From Candidatus Bipolaricaulis anaerobius (GTDB lineage: Bacteria > Bipolaricaulota > Bipolaricaulia > Bipolaricaulales > Bipolaricaulaceae), in the NCBI RefSeq assembly GCF_900465355.1, contig NZ_LS483254.1, positions 310,001 to 374,000 on the forward strand: a DNA stretch of 64,000 nucleotides, read 5' to 3'. The position numbers and the translations under genes were made by a program. Of the stretch, positions 22,989 through 30,921 are shown in pieces. The notes beneath the pieces are model-generated. The model was not told the DNA's origin, made no database searches, and saw only the letters and a program-made list of their open reading frames with translations. The stretch's first letter is position 1. Every line of letters begins with the position of its first letter.

Positions 22989-24221
22989 ATGAGACGACTG
23001 GGGATCGCGCTGGTGTGTGCCGCTGCTGTAACCGTGCCCTCGATGGCCCAACTGAGCGGAAGCTGGGAGGCAAGCCTCCTCATCCTCCCTTCCCCACCAG
23101 GGGTGACTCTGGAGACGTGCGTTCTCACCCTGGGGTACGGCGTGGCGGCGGGGTGGCAAGTGACAAGCACCTCGACGTTCGGCACCCTCGGCCTCACCGC
23201 TCAGGCGTTCGGGGTCCTCGGCGCGTTCGGGCCCCTCTCCATCACCGGCGGGATCGAGTTCAACCCGCAAGCTGGGACCATGGTGACGGTGACCTACCCC
23301 GCAGGGTGTACACCGCAGACGGAATCCGTGAGCCTTGTCTCTCCCGCCTACAAGTTGGCCTGGTTCAAGACCGAACTGAGCTTCCTTGGCGCCGGGGTGG
23401 CCTTCCAACTCAATCATTGGGCCTATCCCTACACCTTGGATCCCACGGATCCCGATGACGTCGAAGATTACCTCTGGCCGTGCTGCCCACCCCAAACGCA
23501 GAGCTACACCCTCCTCGCCCTCATCGTGAGCGCCCCCCCCGCGACCCTGACCGCCCGCTTCTCTGACTGCTGCACGGGGATCGCGTTCACCGATGTGACC
23601 CTGACCCTGTCGGACGCCTCCCTCTGCTGCGGGATCACCCACGATATTGAGGTCTACTTCACGAAGGCCGGGTTCGGGCACCTCCTGTTCACGATTGACC
23701 TCCCGATCTGTTGTGGGATCTCCATCGAGGCCTCGATCACGTACACCGTCACCCAGAAGGAGCTCTCCGTAAAGCCGAAGTGGAATGGGCAGGGGCAAGC
23801 GTGCTTCGAGGTCTACGGTGATGTCCTGTGGGACTGGGACGAGGAGCCGATGACCATCACCGGGCTTGCGATCTACGGGTACAAGCTTCGCTGTGACTTC
23901 AGCTCCTGCTCCTACGCCGAGTTCATGACCGCCCTCGATGTCGCCGAGGTCGAGGAGATCCTCGACGATGAAGACCTCTTCCAGGATCTCGAGTTCGAGT
24001 ACATGAAGCTTGGATTCTGCGGGCCCGGGTGTTGCGGTGGAATGTACACGCTCGCCCTGGCCGTCTATTTCCAGCCTGAGGGGACCCTGTTTGGGTTCAC
24101 GAGGATCGGCGCGGACCTCGGAGTCCCCCTCCTCGCCAACTTCCGGTTGACCCTCTCGTTTGGGGTCACGGCCACGGGTGGGCCCACCACCCTGGCCGTC
24201 GGGTGGGTCCTCACCTTTTGA
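22989..24221 (+). CDS. Secreted cysteine-rich beta-rich protein (CCG-motif paralogue 1)
   Basis: 410 aa. The ATG at 22989 lies eight bases after a perfect AAGGAGG; an in-frame ATG at 22971 is less likely. A signal peptide ends near PSMAQ (residue 20). The rest is predicted all-beta, acidic, with repeated paired cysteines (WPCCPP, SDCCTG, SLCCGI, PICCGI, GPGCCGG) and no recognised enzyme motif. Its C-terminal half aligns with that of the next gene (shared CxxVYGDVxW, ITGLxxYGxxxxCxF, FEYxxL, CCGG). No named family was recognised; it is probably an exported surface or matrix protein. A terminator follows. Confidence 0.75.
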   Translation: MRRLGIALVCAAAVTVPSMAQLSGSWEASLLILPSPPGVTLETCVLTLGYGVAAGWQVTSTSTFGTLGLTAQAFGVLGAFGPLSITGGIEFNPQAGTMVTVTYPAGCTPQTESVSLVSPAYKLAWFKTELSFLGAGVAFQLNHWAYPYTLDPTDPDDVEDYLWPCCPPQTQSYTLLALIVSAPPATLTARFSDCCTGIAFTDVTLTLSDASLCCGITHDIEVYFTKAGFGHLLFTIDLPICCGISIEASITYTVTQKELSVKPKWNGQGQACFEVYGDVLWDWDEEPMTITGLAIYGYKLRCDFSSCSYAEFMTALDVAEVEEILDDEDLFQDLEFEYMKLGFCGPGCCGGMYTLALAVYFQPEGTLFGFTRIGADLGVPLLANFRLTLSFGVTATGGPTTLAVGWVLTF

Positions 24222-24242
24222 GAGAGGATTCCTGTTTGAGTC

Positions 24243-24274
24243 GGGCCCCGGGTTTCCGGGGCCCGTCCTTTGTT
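24243..24274 (+). terminator. Rho-independent terminator after the first CCG protein
   Basis: Perfect 9 bp GC stem GGGCCCCGG/CCGGGGCCC (24243-24251 with 24256-24264), loop GTTT, followed by the T-biased GTCCTTTGTT. It lies 22 bp after the stop codon at 24221. Confidence 0.85.
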
Positions 24275-24297
24275 GGGGACAGGGGGGCGCGTACAAT
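24270..24297 (+). promoter_or_regulatory. Putative promoter for the second CCG protein
   Basis: TTGTTG at 24270-24275 and TACAAT at 24292-24297 with a 16 bp spacer, immediately behind the terminator. It would give a leader of about 28 nt with an AGGAGG site at 24321. Judged by eye. Confidence 0.5.
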
Positions 24298-24331
24298 CAC
24301 GTCAACCTAAGCGCGAGACCAGGAGGACGTC

Positions 24332-26161
24332 GTGCGGGTGGTGGGCGCAGCATCCCTCGTCCTTGCCTTCGCCCTGGGGGCGCAGGCCCAGCCCCCAATC
24401 TCGGGGGCATTGGACCTGACCCTGGGGCTCCTTCCCGCGTTCGAGCTTCAGGGGTGCTCGCTCACCCTCAAGGCCACCGTCGCCGGGCTCGGAGTAGAAA
24501 GCGAGTCCACGTTCTACCACGATGGCCTCCGCTACCAGAGCTTCTCTTTGTCCGGACCAGCGGGCCCGTTCGATCTCGAGGGGAAGATCTACTTCCACGC
24601 CCAGGAGGTGCGCTACCGGCGGGCATGGGCCCACCTGGAGATGGCGATCGGCGATGGAACCCTCCTCCTCAGCGCCTACCACTTTGGCTCAGCGGGGGAG
24701 TACACCTCCTCCGACAAGGACAGGTTCGGGCCCTGGCCGTGTGTGAACGCGATCCCGTGGGATGAGGCGTGGCAGCACATCGGGCGCACGCTCTACGTGG
24801 AGGGACCGGTCGTGGGGTACGACGGGTCGGGCCCCCTCAAGCTGTACCTCGGCCGCCTGCCTCCCGATCCGGAGCGGCTCGAGGTCTCCATCTCCGCCGC
24901 GAATGTCGCCAAGTTCGAGGAGGCCTTGGGCCCGCAGTTCTGGCAGGGCCTTGTGGGGAAGGTCGTGTGCGTGCGGGGGACGATCAAGGACGTCCGCTAC
25001 ACGACCCCCCCCGCCCATTCTGCCCCCCAGGTGACCGTGTCCAGCACCTCTGACCTCACGGTGGGCTCCTGTTGCGGGCTGCGGCCGGATACGACCTGCC
25101 CCCACCCCCTCATCCTCTGGTCCGAGGTCCTTGAGCATGTGGGGGAGGCCGTGTTCATCCAGGGACCGGTGGCGAGCGTGACCTCGCCCGCGGGGTACCG
25201 TCGCCTCCGCCTCGGGGGAGGGGAAACGGTCCCCAACCGGCTGGAGGTGTACATCCCTGAGACTGCCCTGCCGGCCTTCCAGGACGTGTTTGGGGGTTCT
25301 TTCCCCAGCAGCCTGATGAATAAGACGATCTGCGTCCGGGGGATGATCGGCACGGGCCCCCCGGCGGCGGAGAACGTCGCCCGCGTGGTCCTCACCGATC
25401 CCGGCGATCTCTCGATCGGGCCGTGCTGCGGGGCGGATCTTCACACGGGAGGCCTGTTCGTGGCGCGGACTCACTTCGCGTGGGACCGCTGGTCGTTCAC
25501 CGTGGACCTTTCCGATTGCGGAGTCGGCCTGGGCCTCCTCCAGGCCACGGCCGCGCTTGAGGGCTATCCCCTCGCGGACGGCCTCCGGCTCGACCTTGGG
25601 CTCACCTTCTCCAAGTGTCGCGGGCTGGACGCCGTTACCCTCACGCTTGAGGGGCTCTCGGTGGGCTGCTGCGACCTCGCCGCCGAGGTCGGGATCTCCC
25701 TCACGCCGGGGAAGAAAACCGTGACGTTCACGCGCATCTGGCCGCGGCTCTCCGGCTGCCTCACCGTGTACGGAGACGTAGATTGGAATGGGTCAAGCTT
25801 CACGGGGATCTCCTTCTACGGCTGGCGGGTTTCCTGCTCGTTCGGCCCGGTGAAGCTGGGGCTCGTCACCGCGCTCGATCCCGATGCGGTGGAGGACATG
25901 ACCGACGTCACGTTCTACGCCGACGAGTTCGAGTACGTTGAGATCTCGTCCACCGGGGGTGGCTGCTGCGGAGGGTCGATCACCTCGACCACAGAACTGT
26001 GGTTCGGGGCGAAGGGGACGGTCGGCGGCCTGCAGCGGGTGCGGCTCACGCTCGAGATCCCCCTCGCCGCGAATGCGACCGTATCCGCGAAAGGGCAGTG
26101 GAACTTCGTCAAAGCCGAACCGTTGGAATGGTTCAACGTGGGAGGGAAGGTCTCCTTCTAG
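24332..26161 (+). CDS. Secreted cysteine-rich protein with two OB-like repeats (CCG-motif paralogue 2)
   Basis: 609 aa from GTG at 24332 with AGGAGG six bases upstream. A signal peptide ends near GAQAQ (residue 20). Residues 21-136 are a beta-rich N-terminal domain. Residues 137-249 and 256-367 are two copies of a 112-113 residue domain with pattern hGxxhhhxGPV...LEV.I...F...L..K..CVRG.I ... DL..G.CCG, suggestive of an OB-fold. Residues about 370-609 match the C-terminal half of the preceding gene's product (SCDL/CCDL, CLTVYGDVDWNG, ISFYGWRVSCSF, FEYVEI, GGCCGGS). No catalytic motif seen. It is probably exported; function unknown. Confidence 0.75.
   Translation: MRVVGAASLVLAFALGAQAQPPISGALDLTLGLLPAFELQGCSLTLKATVAGLGVESESTFYHDGLRYQSFSLSGPAGPFDLEGKIYFHAQEVRYRRAWAHLEMAIGDGTLLLSAYHFGSAGEYTSSDKDRFGPWPCVNAIPWDEAWQHIGRTLYVEGPVVGYDGSGPLKLYLGRLPPDPERLEVSISAANVAKFEEALGPQFWQGLVGKVVCVRGTIKDVRYTTPPAHSAPQVTVSSTSDLTVGSCCGLRPDTTCPHPLILWSEVLEHVGEAVFIQGPVASVTSPAGYRRLRLGGGETVPNRLEVYIPETALPAFQDVFGGSFPSSLMNKTICVRGMIGTGPPAAENVARVVLTDPGDLSIGPCCGADLHTGGLFVARTHFAWDRWSFTVDLSDCGVGLGLLQATAALEGYPLADGLRLDLGLTFSKCRGLDAVTLTLEGLSVGCCDLAAEVGISLTPGKKTVTFTRIWPRLSGCLTVYGDVDWNGSSFTGISFYGWRVSCSFGPVKLGLVTALDPDAVEDMTDVTFYADEFEYVEISSTGGGCCGGSITSTTELWFGAKGTVGGLQRVRLTLEIPLAANATVSAKGQWNFVKAEPLEWFNVGGKVSF
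24740..25078 (+). repeat. OB-like domain repeat, copy 1 (protein-level)
   Basis: Encodes residues 137-249 of the second CCG protein. Anchors shared with copy 2: HIGRTLYVEGPV, RLEVSI, FEEALGPQFW, GKVVCVRGTI, DLTVGSCCG. Confidence 0.7.
25097..25432 (+). repeat. OB-like domain repeat, copy 2 (protein-level)
   Basis: Encodes residues 256-367 of the second CCG protein. Anchors matching copy 1: HVGEAVFIQGPV, RLEVYI, FQDVFGGSFP, NKTICVRGMI, DLSIGPCCG. Similarity is at protein level, so the duplication is old. Confidence 0.7.
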
Positions 26162-27027: not shown

Positions 27028-28890
27028 ATGCACAGAGCAATCGCGATCTTACTGAGTGGGGTGGCTCTTGTCGTGGGCGCGGCGGCTGAGCGCGGGCCCA
27101 TTGTCATCCTTTCCGATGCCGATTTCACAGCCGACAACGGGGTGATCGGCGGCGCGGGAACCCCCGCTGATCCCTACCTGATCGTGGGGGGGCAGATCCG
27201 CGTCCCTGATGGGGAGCTCTACGGGATCCGGGTCGAGGATACCACGGCCGCGTTCGTCATCCGGGGGTGCCTGGTGAGCGGAGCGATGGACTCCCGCGGG
27301 GCCGCGATCTACCTCGCCGATGTGACGGGAGGGACGATCGAGGATTGCTCAGTTAGCGATAGCATCAATGGGATCCGCATCCAGACGTCGCGGGATATCG
27401 CGGTGCGCGACACCTTCCTCGGCGTGTACGGGGTCGGGTTCCAGGTGTTGGGGCTCGAGGCGGAGCACTTTCGGCACGCGGTCGAGCCGACCACCACCGT
27501 GAACGGCCAAGAGGTCCGCTACTACTACGGGGCCTCTGGGCAAGTCCTGGAGGGGATCGCCGCGGGGAACATCACGCTCGCCGCGTGTCGCAACGTGACC
27601 CTCCGGGGGGCGAAGATCGACAAGGGGGATGGGATCACGGTTGCCTTCTCCGAGGGCGTGCGGATCGAGAACGCGGACATCTCGCGCGCGATGGGGAACG
27701 GGGTGTTCATCGTCTCCTCCCCGGGCACGGTGGTCGTGGATTCCCCACGGATTGCGAACTGTGCCCAGGCGGGGATCTCGGTCCTCCTCTCGGATCGGGT
27801 GTGGGTGGAGAAGGTTGGGCTGTACGCGAACCAGGTGGGGTTGCTCGTGAACGGCTCCGACGGGGTGATGGTGCGGAACAATGCGTTCGCCGCGAATTCG
27901 ATCGGCGTCCTTGTGACGGGCGGGGCGCAGGAGACGGTGATCCAGCAGGGGCTATTCTACCAGAACAACCATGGGGTGGAGATCGAGACGTCGCAGGGCG
28001 CGGTGGTGGAGGCGTGTGCGTTCACCGAATCCGATGTTGCCGTGTTCATCGAGGGCGGGGCCCAGAACCCGCGGGTGGCGTACTCGACGATGGCCCAGGT
28101 GGGTTATGGGATCTCAACCCTCGGTTCGTATGGGGTCTACGAACGGAACCTCATCGCGCGGGCGAATATCGGGCTCATCTTCGAGGAGGCCTATGGGCAG
28201 GCCACCCCCACCGGCAACACCGTCCGCCACAACGTGCTCTACCGCTCTACGGACGCGCTGTACCTCGGCACGGAGACGAGCGGGACTCGGGTCTACGAGA
28301 ACCTGATCTGGGATTGCAGCCGCGCGGCGCGGGACCTCGGGAAGAACCTGTGGGCCCCCGACGGGCGGGGGAACTGGTACTCCGACTACACAGCGCCGGA
28401 CGAGAACAAGGATGGGATCGGCGATCTCCCGGTCCTGTTCGGGGGCGGGGGCGAGGACGCTGCTCCGCTCCTGGACCGTGGCTTCTACCCTGGCCTGCCC
28501 GGGGTGGTGGGGACGATGCGCGAACAGGCCCTGATCCTGGCGGACGCGGCCGGGAACCAGGCGAACCTCGTAGCCCGCGTCGCCGCGCTCCCGCACGAGA
28601 GGTTCATCGGGTTCCAGGGGATCCCGAGCGAGACGGGAAAGGACCTCGCGATCCTGTTCGTGTTCGAGGCCCCCACGGTGAGCCAGTTCCACATGCAGAA
28701 CGTGTTCCTCCCGCTCGACCTCGTGTTCTTCGCCGCCGACGGGGCGTTCCTCGGCCGGACGACGATGGAGGCCGATTCGAAGGACCTCTACGGGGCAGCT
28801 GATCCGTTCACATTTGCGCTCGAGGTGCCAGCGGGAAGGCTCGCCGCACTCGGGCTGGGGCGGGAGGTCACGCTCACCCGGGTCCCGTGA
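27028..28890 (+). CDS. Secreted right-handed beta-helix protein fused to a DUF192 domain
   Basis: 620 aa; ATG at 27028 after AAGGAGG. A signal peptide covers residues 1-20. Residues about 30-490 are a NosD/pectate-lyase-like parallel beta-helix: repeated short units such as ITLAACRNVTLRGAKI, GVRIENADISRAMGNGVFI, GVMVRNNAFAANSIGVLV, ending with GNWYSDYTAPDENKDGIGD as in NosD/CASH repeats. Residues 514-620 match DUF192 (ERFIGFQGIPSETGKDLAILFVF, QNVFLPLDLVFF, FALEVPAG). Helix proteins of this type bind or cleave polysaccharide, but no catalytic residues were identified. DUF192 is usually a stand-alone small secreted protein, so the fusion is unusual. Confidence 0.8.
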   Translation: MHRAIAILLSGVALVVGAAAERGPIVILSDADFTADNGVIGGAGTPADPYLIVGGQIRVPDGELYGIRVEDTTAAFVIRGCLVSGAMDSRGAAIYLADVTGGTIEDCSVSDSINGIRIQTSRDIAVRDTFLGVYGVGFQVLGLEAEHFRHAVEPTTTVNGQEVRYYYGASGQVLEGIAAGNITLAACRNVTLRGAKIDKGDGITVAFSEGVRIENADISRAMGNGVFIVSSPGTVVVDSPRIANCAQAGISVLLSDRVWVEKVGLYANQVGLLVNGSDGVMVRNNAFAANSIGVLVTGGAQETVIQQGLFYQNNHGVEIETSQGAVVEACAFTESDVAVFIEGGAQNPRVAYSTMAQVGYGISTLGSYGVYERNLIARANIGLIFEEAYGQATPTGNTVRHNVLYRSTDALYLGTETSGTRVYENLIWDCSRAARDLGKNLWAPDGRGNWYSDYTAPDENKDGIGDLPVLFGGGGEDAAPLLDRGFYPGLPGVVGTMREQALILADAAGNQANLVARVAALPHERFIGFQGIPSETGKDLAILFVFEAPTVSQFHMQNVFLPLDLVFFAADGAFLGRTTMEADSKDLYGAADPFTFALEVPAGRLAALGLGREVTLTRVP

Positions 28891-29571: not shown

Positions 29572-30921
29572 ATGGACCGCGAACGGGGGAGAGAGGAGGT
29601 CGCCCAGAAATGGCGGGAGCTTCTCGGGGGAGTCCAGGATCAGCTGCTCCGCGCGTGCCTTCCTACCTCCCCAGATAAGGTCCGACGGGACCGCGGTGTC
29701 CTCCTGATCGAGATCGACTCACCGTTCAAGAGAGACTACGTCCAACGCAAGCTGGGGAAGCTCACCGAGGCGGTGCGGGCCGTGTTCGGGGAGGTCGAGG
29801 TGCATCTGACCGAGCCAGGGGAGCAACGCACGCTCCCGTTTGAAGAGGAGGCCACGATACCCGTGCCCGCGGAGGCCCCCGCCCATCCCATGCCGGCGCG
29901 GATCCTCGTCCTGGGGATCGGGGGTGGGGGGATCAACGCCCTCAGCCGGATGCGCGACGCCAAGCTGGCGGGGGTTCGCCTGGCGGCCCTCGACACGGAT
30001 CGTCAGGTGCTGTCCTCGTTCCATGGCGGGGAGGGTCTTCTCCTCGGCCAGCGGGTGACCCATGGCCGGAGCACCGGTGGGGATCCGGACAAGGCGCGCC
30101 GGGCGGCGGAGGAGGCTGTGGCGGAGATTGAGGATCTCATCGCTGACGCCCACCTCGTGTTCCTCACCTGCGGGCTCGGGAAGGGGACGGGCGCGGGCAG
30201 CGCGCCGGTGGTGGCCCAGATTGCCCGCTCCCGTGGCGCGCTCACGGTGGGGGTGGTCACCCTCCCGTTTTCGTTCGAGGGGGAACTACGGGCCCAGCGG
30301 GCCCAGGCGAGCCTGGCGCGGTTGGCGGAGAAGAGCGATGTCCTGATCGTGGTCCGCAACGATCGCCTCCTGGAGATCGTCCCCAACGTCTCGGTGACCG
30401 AGGCGTTTCGGCTCGCCGATGACGTGCTCCTGCGTGGGGTGCGGGGCATCTCCGACCTCATCACCGTGCCCGGCTTGGTCAACCTCGACTTCGCGGATGT
30501 CGCCTCCGTGCTGCGGGGGGCGGGGACGGCGATGATGGGCATGGGGGAGGACCGGGGCGAGAACAGGGCCCTGCGCGCGGCGAAGGCAGCGGTGACGAAC
30601 CCCCTCCTCGAGGGGGGGACGATCAAGGGGGCGCGGCGCGTCCTCCTCAACATCACCGGCGGGGAGGATCTCACGCTGACCGAGGTGACCCAGGTGGCGG
30701 AGTTCATCCGCCGATCCGCTGCCGCCGAGGCCGATATCACGTTCGGGGCAGTGATCCAGCCCCAGCAGAGCGGGAAGGTCGAGGTGACCGTGATCGCGGC
30801 CGACTTCCGCGAGGTCGCAGTTGAGGAGGAGGAGAAGGAGCGGCCGCGGCCCGTCATCCCCCGCCGGACCCCCGGCGAGGACCTCGACATCCCAACGTTC
30901 CTTCGGCGTTCGGAAGGCTGA
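29572..30921 (+). CDS. ftsZ: FtsZ with an N-terminal DnaA-domain-I-like module
   Basis: 449 aa. Residues 108-412 are a full FtsZ: GIGGGGINALSRM (116-127), DTDRQ, the tubulin G-box GLGKGTGAGSAP (201-212), FEGELR, NDRLLEIV, T7 loop NLDFADV (304-310), NITGGEDL. The C-terminal tail ends DLDIPTFLRRSEG, the conserved FtsA/ZipA-binding peptide. Residues about 8-80 (KWRELLGGVQDQLLRAC, LLIEIDSPFKRDYVQRKLGKL, FGEVEVHL) resemble domain I of DnaA or the DnaX C-terminal domain, a small KH-like protein-binding module not normally in FtsZ; a linker (81-107) joins them. The G-box reads GKGTGAG rather than GGGTGTG. No ribosome site is obvious; a CACAAT box lies 13 bp upstream. No second ftsZ is seen in the window. 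Confidence 0.9.
   Translation: MDRERGREEVAQKWRELLGGVQDQLLRACLPTSPDKVRRDRGVLLIEIDSPFKRDYVQRKLGKLTEAVRAVFGEVEVHLTEPGEQRTLPFEEEATIPVPAEAPAHPMPARILVLGIGGGGINALSRMRDAKLAGVRLAALDTDRQVLSSFHGGEGLLLGQRVTHGRSTGGDPDKARRAAEEAVAEIEDLIADAHLVFLTCGLGKGTGAGSAPVVAQIARSRGALTVGVVTLPFSFEGELRAQRAQASLARLAEKSDVLIVVRNDRLLEIVPNVSVTEAFRLADDVLLRGVRGISDLITVPGLVNLDFADVASVLRGAGTAMMGMGEDRGENRALRAAKAAVTNPLLEGGTIKGARRVLLNITGGEDLTLTEVTQVAEFIRRSAAAEADITFGAVIQPQQSGKVEVTVIAADFREVAVEEEEKERPRPVIPRRTPGEDLDIPTFLRRSEG

Follow-up and report, generated by a model that had tools for sequence, protein, structure and literature searches.

The window, the whole stretch of 64,000 nucleotides that was analyzed, is part of a single-contig genome of 1.32 Mb and contains two adjacent genes, here called A and B (Table 1). 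An earlier note on this DNA had described them as an adjacent pair of exported, cysteine-rich proteins, and this description held: both open reading frames were located at the coordinates given in Table 1, both proteins begin with a signal-peptide-like segment (AQA/Q in B, judged by eye), and CC, CCG and CCGG pairs together with a VYGDVxW motif are common to A and B. The hairpin behind A, a consensus match only, has a perfect GC stem of 10 bp with a T-rich tail behind it, because of which A and B look separately terminated.

Table 1. Features of the A–B locus (positions in the window; aa, amino acids)
Feature	Coordinates	Strand	Description	Basis
Gene A	22989..24221	+	410 aa, ATG start, GGAGG upstream	Open reading frame and translation
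A signal peptide	22989..23048	+	aa 1-20 (SMA/Q)	Sequence by eye; AF2 helix 2-18, then strand 21-33
A loop 7-8	23421..23504	+	aa 145-172, predicted extracellular, includes WPCC	Strand map, insertion survey
A segment with ten near-invariant Cys	23625..24035	+	aa 213-349	Column conservation in 39 homologues
A C-terminal strand	24189..24218	+	TLAVGWVLTF, beta-signal-like	Terminal-residue count; published beta-signal definition
Terminator-like hairpin 3' of A	24242..24265	+		Consensus match only
Gene B	24332..26161	+	609 aa, GTG start, AGGAGG upstream	Open reading frame and translation
B OB-fold repeat 1	24695..25075	+	aa ~122-248	Repeat comparison, Teb1 fold match
B OB-fold repeat 2	25076..25447	+	aa ~249-372	Repeat comparison, fold match, conservation
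B C-terminal end	26132..26158	+	FNVGGKVSF, beta-signal-like	

Two further genes were observed in the same part of the window. A NosD/beta-helix protein with a C-terminal DUF192 domain (27028-28890) adjoins the A–B locus and is kept there in relatives, and an FtsZ-like protein (29572-30921), whose gene is conserved in relatives, has an N-terminal extension of approximately 105 aa. This extension matched no Pfam family and gave no credible PDB sequence match; visual inspection suggests a likeness to a DnaA-type N-terminal domain.

A shared core and its distribution

The B protein matched the A locus with E = 1.6e-24 and 32% identity over residues 355-584 of B, and a second match was found in the N-terminal part. 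The earlier note had described a shared C-terminal half; the C-terminal match was confirmed, but the restriction to that half was not, since the homology spans the whole core with the N-terminal seven strands included. The main difference between the two proteins is an insert of two tandem repeats of ~120 aa in B. The genome-wide paralogue count that the earlier note had suggested gave three members: A, B and a third at 81.6-83.0 kb.

The family was searched for in a wide set of genomes. With B as the query, 39 of the 40 genomes searched within its GTDB family gave matches, and a profile search recovered the family from 90 of 100 phylum genomes, many of which contain 5 to 15 matching places each, some being fragments of one gene. 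When every GTDB species genome was scanned with a narrower alignment, the homologues fell on contigs named Bipolaricaulota or Acetothermia with few exceptions, in agreement with the lineage-specific character proposed before. The exceptions are a few MAGs labeled Thermotoga sp., archaeon or uncultured bacterium, and these off-phylum labels are taken to be naming errors. A virus-derived origin of the family was rejected in view of its phylum-wide presence and of the viral contigs searched, which encode no relative.

The profile searches suggested in the earlier note gave the A and B core no above-chance model in Pfam, NCBIfam or PHROGs, and no known enzyme motif was seen in either protein, so the designation as an unknown family without enzyme motif still applies. 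Among 57 relatives scanned against Pfam, the matched families were all of added-domain types and none was a barrel; PDB sequence searches with the family gave only weak, implausible matches and no significant similarity to solved structures. On the best reading, A and B represent a Bipolaricaulota family not described before, set apart as a new family within the BAM-type outer-membrane proteins.

The predicted barrel and the candidate machinery for its insertion

AF2 models of A (mean pLDDT 81.5, alignment of 39 sequences) and B (mean pLDDT 86.0, alignment of 32 sequences) have cores made of strands throughout, as the term all-beta in the earlier note had anticipated. The DSSP strings of A and B alike give 7 + 15 = 22 antiparallel strands, with lower AF2 confidence in strands 12-16. 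In Foldseek searches against the PDB, all 50 of the 50 best matches of A were membrane beta barrels, including PapC, porins, PirA, OprC, OmpM1 and VDAC; with low TM-scores (at most 0.45) and a high rmsd, these matches establish that the fold is of the membrane-barrel class but do not identify the exact barrel. The matches of B were BtuB, LptD, PapC and FecA for the barrel and Teb1 for the insert.

In bacterial barrels, both termini face the periplasm, and the topology was assigned by this rule. The periplasmic turns of A are then all 2-5 aa long, while its long loops of 31, 28 and 21 aa are all on the external side, where some other loops are unusually short (2-4 aa). The hydrophobicity alternation along the strands of A is 1.27 compared with 0.63 (sd 0.10) for shuffled sequences, and none of 1000 shuffles was as high. 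A has no plug: strand 1 begins straight after the signal peptide, and a Pfam plug match is absent.

The C-termini of the family match the published beta-signal, the motif definition of which was followed here (PMC10945584). A terminal Phe was found in 93 of 96 close family members, mostly inside a beta-signal-like motif, and a terminal Trp or Phe in 17 of 19 distant members; aromatic ends make up 5% of background open reading frames. The genome of the window encodes BamA (PF01103, above the cut-off), directly followed by a Skp-like gene as read from the sequence, while a whole-genome search with the LptD profile PF04453 gave no match. The core of A and B is very probably a BAM-type outer-membrane beta barrel, predicted to have 22 strands and no plug.

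The sole SLH match in the genome of the window belongs to a separate protein. It is an exported protein of 161 aa encoded near SecA (L123:1237-1722) that combines a single SLH domain with a helical stretch and has a hydrophobic segment at its C-terminus, and it may be a separate envelope tether.

Inserted domains, cysteines and variation

The insert of B lies between strands 7 and 8, and its two repeats share 35% identity (E = 2e-20). In the papers searched, no case of OB-folds carried by a barrel loop came up. The predicted fold is a tandem of OB-folds (AF2, with a Foldseek E = 4.4e-7 to the Teb1 OB pair). OB-folds also serve in sugar or protein binding, and binding of nucleic acid by the insert of B can be proposed from its modeled fold only tentatively. 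A sub-threshold match of the OB repeat to FlgD_tudor (Pfam) was rejected as chance. The OB domain of B recurs at the C-terminus of small exported proteins in related genomes (L114-L122), with 39-51% identity over ~85 aa; the N-terminal part of these proteins is weakly SNase-like (E = 0.006, below the Pfam cut-off). The genome of the window itself yielded no counterpart of these SNase-like and OB proteins.

Loop 7-8 of A is, by the insertion survey, the position where paralogues hold additional domains. Among 109 members, 43 core insertions of at least 60 aa were counted, all in predicted external loops and 38 of them in loop 7-8; the 43 are not independent events, as several come from one protein or close orthologues, and faulty alignment may account for a few of the placements in loop 5-6. 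The paralogues L043, L072 and L099 carry CBM48/AMPK1-type starch-binding modules, the CBM48-type modules of relatives are located in loop 7-8, and the CBM-bearing paralogues probably bind alpha-glucans. Many relatives also have N-terminal additions (CBM48, DUF11, InlB-like and Big_9), which would be periplasmic under the standard topology, the least comfortable point for a display model. In three long loci (L036:14-9580, L037:4193-7960 and L039:35-3325), open reading frames of up to 3188 aa were observed in which the barrel is joined to DUF11-type repeats, an arginine-containing hydrophobic stretch, a further signal-peptide-like segment and an InlB-like domain, and these are perhaps cleaved precursors.

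Cysteines occupy ten columns in 90-100% of 39 homologues, because of which chance is ruled out for the shared pattern. All ten map to the predicted periplasmic turns 10-11, 12-13, 14-15, 16-17 and 18-19, where strands 10-19 end, and the external cysteines are less conserved. Disulfide stabilization or metal binding had been suggested in the earlier note; the cysteine-rich exported protein stands, and profiles of DsbA, DsbB, VKOR and Thioredoxin_4 found no match in the 97%-complete genome of the window, while these profiles did find matches in several control genomes. The conserved cysteines may form disulfides by another route or may bind metal. They could instead form the functional center of the barrel, as a rim of thiolates at the periplasmic mouth that binds metal (Zn, Fe or Fe-S) or relays redox equivalents in metal uptake or electron transfer. 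Near-invariance in five consecutive periplasmic turns speaks for such a center, as does the lack of evident catalyzed disulfides, but other oxidoreductases may serve beyond the four disulfide-machinery families searched, and no cytochrome or metal-export neighbor was seen. Moreover, the richness in cysteine peaks in the taxonomic family to which the window belongs and declines in more distant relatives, at least one of which has none; members from other families drop many of these residues and retain the family signature, and so the barrel and not the cysteines defines the superfamily. A functional center in the rim is considered unlikely.

The A locus was compared with that of a genome in which it is otherwise nearly identical (G011). 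The DNA identity is 96.6% up to 23069 (approximately codon 27 of A), falls to ~44-66% per 100 bases over the rest of A (~55% overall, with 69-80% in the breakpoint blocks) and recovers to 93% from 24243, where the 3' limit of the replacement coincides with the terminator-like hairpin. The mature part of A in G011 is replaced by a homologue of ~44-46% identity. Two genomes, one of them G004, have A without B at the same locus, and OB-fold repeat 2 is among the least conserved and fastest-evolving parts of B in most comparisons. Divergence of mature A and of this repeat is as would be expected for surface-exposed proteins. It could also be read as the main point, with rapid variation of the surface serving escape from phages or grazers and the binding domains being secondary. 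The divergence of mature A between the two near-identical loci and the separate occurrence of A and B in other genomes favor such a role, but the comparison covered a single clear replacement event, and no connection to phages or predators came to light. Rapid surface variation as the primary role is rather improbable, and it is compatible with the porin/receptor reading set out below and not exclusive of it.

A proposed display barrel and its counterparts in known systems

The whole reading that best accounts for these results is a porin/receptor family of BAM-inserted barrels with a loop for the display of ligand modules, to which a probability of roughly 0.68 is given on computational grounds. 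The BAM-type barrel core and the two OB-folds in an external loop of B had been overlooked in the earlier note; its proposal of a surface or sheath protein agrees with the predicted cell-surface site, while nothing specific supports a sheath or S-layer. A and B would be exported via Sec and cross the periplasm, perhaps with the Skp-like protein encoded beside BamA, and BamA would insert the barrel through its C-terminal strand (G-x-x-hydrophobic-x-Phe). The barrel would form a pore or an anchor in the outer membrane, with a putative transport role, and external loop 7-8 would be the display site, short and porin-like in A. For the two OB-folds of B, the likeliest ligand at the cell surface would be single-stranded nucleic acid, with another polymer as a possible alternative, and such polymer capture would be the first step of nutrient uptake. 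In paralogues, the same loop would present CBM48-type modules to starch, and cysteines in the five adjacent periplasmic turns would lock that rim by disulfides or a bound metal.

A bolder version is doubtful: one external loop would have acquired ligand-binding domains of unrelated kinds (OB-folds and starch-binding modules) more than once, giving each paralogue a distinct capture role at the surface, and the ten cysteines would form a metal or redox ring at the periplasmic mouth in a host without recognized disulfide machinery.

Soluble or S-layer/sheath all-beta coat proteins, stabilized by disulfides and without a membrane barrel, would agree with the signal peptide, the richness in cysteine, the lineage specificity and the surface-type domains (DUF11, Big_9 and InlB-like) attached in relatives, and the mono- or diderm state of the related Ran1 was left unsettled (Hao et al., PMC6092417). 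This explanation is distinctly improbable, as the conserved terminal Phe/Trp follows the beta-signal pattern, BamA is encoded in the genome, A gave fold matches to membrane barrels only, short turns and long loops are asymmetrically placed with hydrophobic alternation along the strands, and neither A nor B shows an SLH or sorting motif. An equally improbable alternative is that B is a porin for DNA uptake in competence, the OB-folds of which would bind ssDNA outside the cell so that ComEC can import it: its tandem OB-folds resemble Teb1 AB, a binder of telomeric ssDNA, a ComEC-family protein is encoded in the genome, and a related OB domain occurs with the SNase-like domain in exported proteins of relatives, but the ComEC family is present in 10 of 14 control genomes and is weak evidence, the SNase match is under the Pfam cut-off, and the CBM-bearing paralogues suggest a general nutrient role.

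For the barrel with a display loop, the wider significance concerns the envelope of the phylum. One versus two membranes in Bipolaricaulota (Acetothermia) was left open at the first closed genome (PMC6092417). The likelihood of a simple outer membrane that lacks LPS transport is raised considerably by a large family of predicted barrels in 90 of 100 genomes, together with the presence of BamA and the absence of LptD in the genome of the window. The family is also a natural case of a barrel loop accepting whole folded domains, and it offers a fast-changing surface locus and an unexplained ring of conserved cysteines.

Several known systems share parts of this architecture. The chlamydial MOMP and the disulfide-linked outer-membrane complex (PMC549562) are similar in kind, as a cysteine-rich, lineage-specific outer-membrane porin; in A and B, however, the cysteines are grouped in five predicted periplasmic turns next to one another, and DsbA and DsbB were not detected. 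The tandem insert of B has its fold in common with Teb1 AB (PDB 3u58), an OB-fold binder of ssDNA, whereas the insert is exported, embedded in a barrel loop and ~12% identical, with nucleic-acid binding only predicted. Barrels of 22 to 24 strands, namely, the TonB-dependent PirA, OprC and BtuB, the usher PapC, and LptD, belong to the same size class and match in fold; A and B differ from the TonB-dependent receptors in having no plug or TonB box and from PapC in having no usher domains, and the genome has no PF04453 match for LptD. The OmpM-type porins of diderm Terrabacteria (Veillonella OmpM1, PDB 8byt; PMC10628300) are alike in being outer-membrane barrels of an early-branching diderm lineage with a proposed role as nutrient channels, and OmpM1 itself appears among the Foldseek matches of A. 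OmpM has an N-terminal SLH domain and a coiled-coil stalk, both of which are missing from A and B, whereas the AF2 models of A and B have 22 strands and the family holds its extra domains in an external loop.
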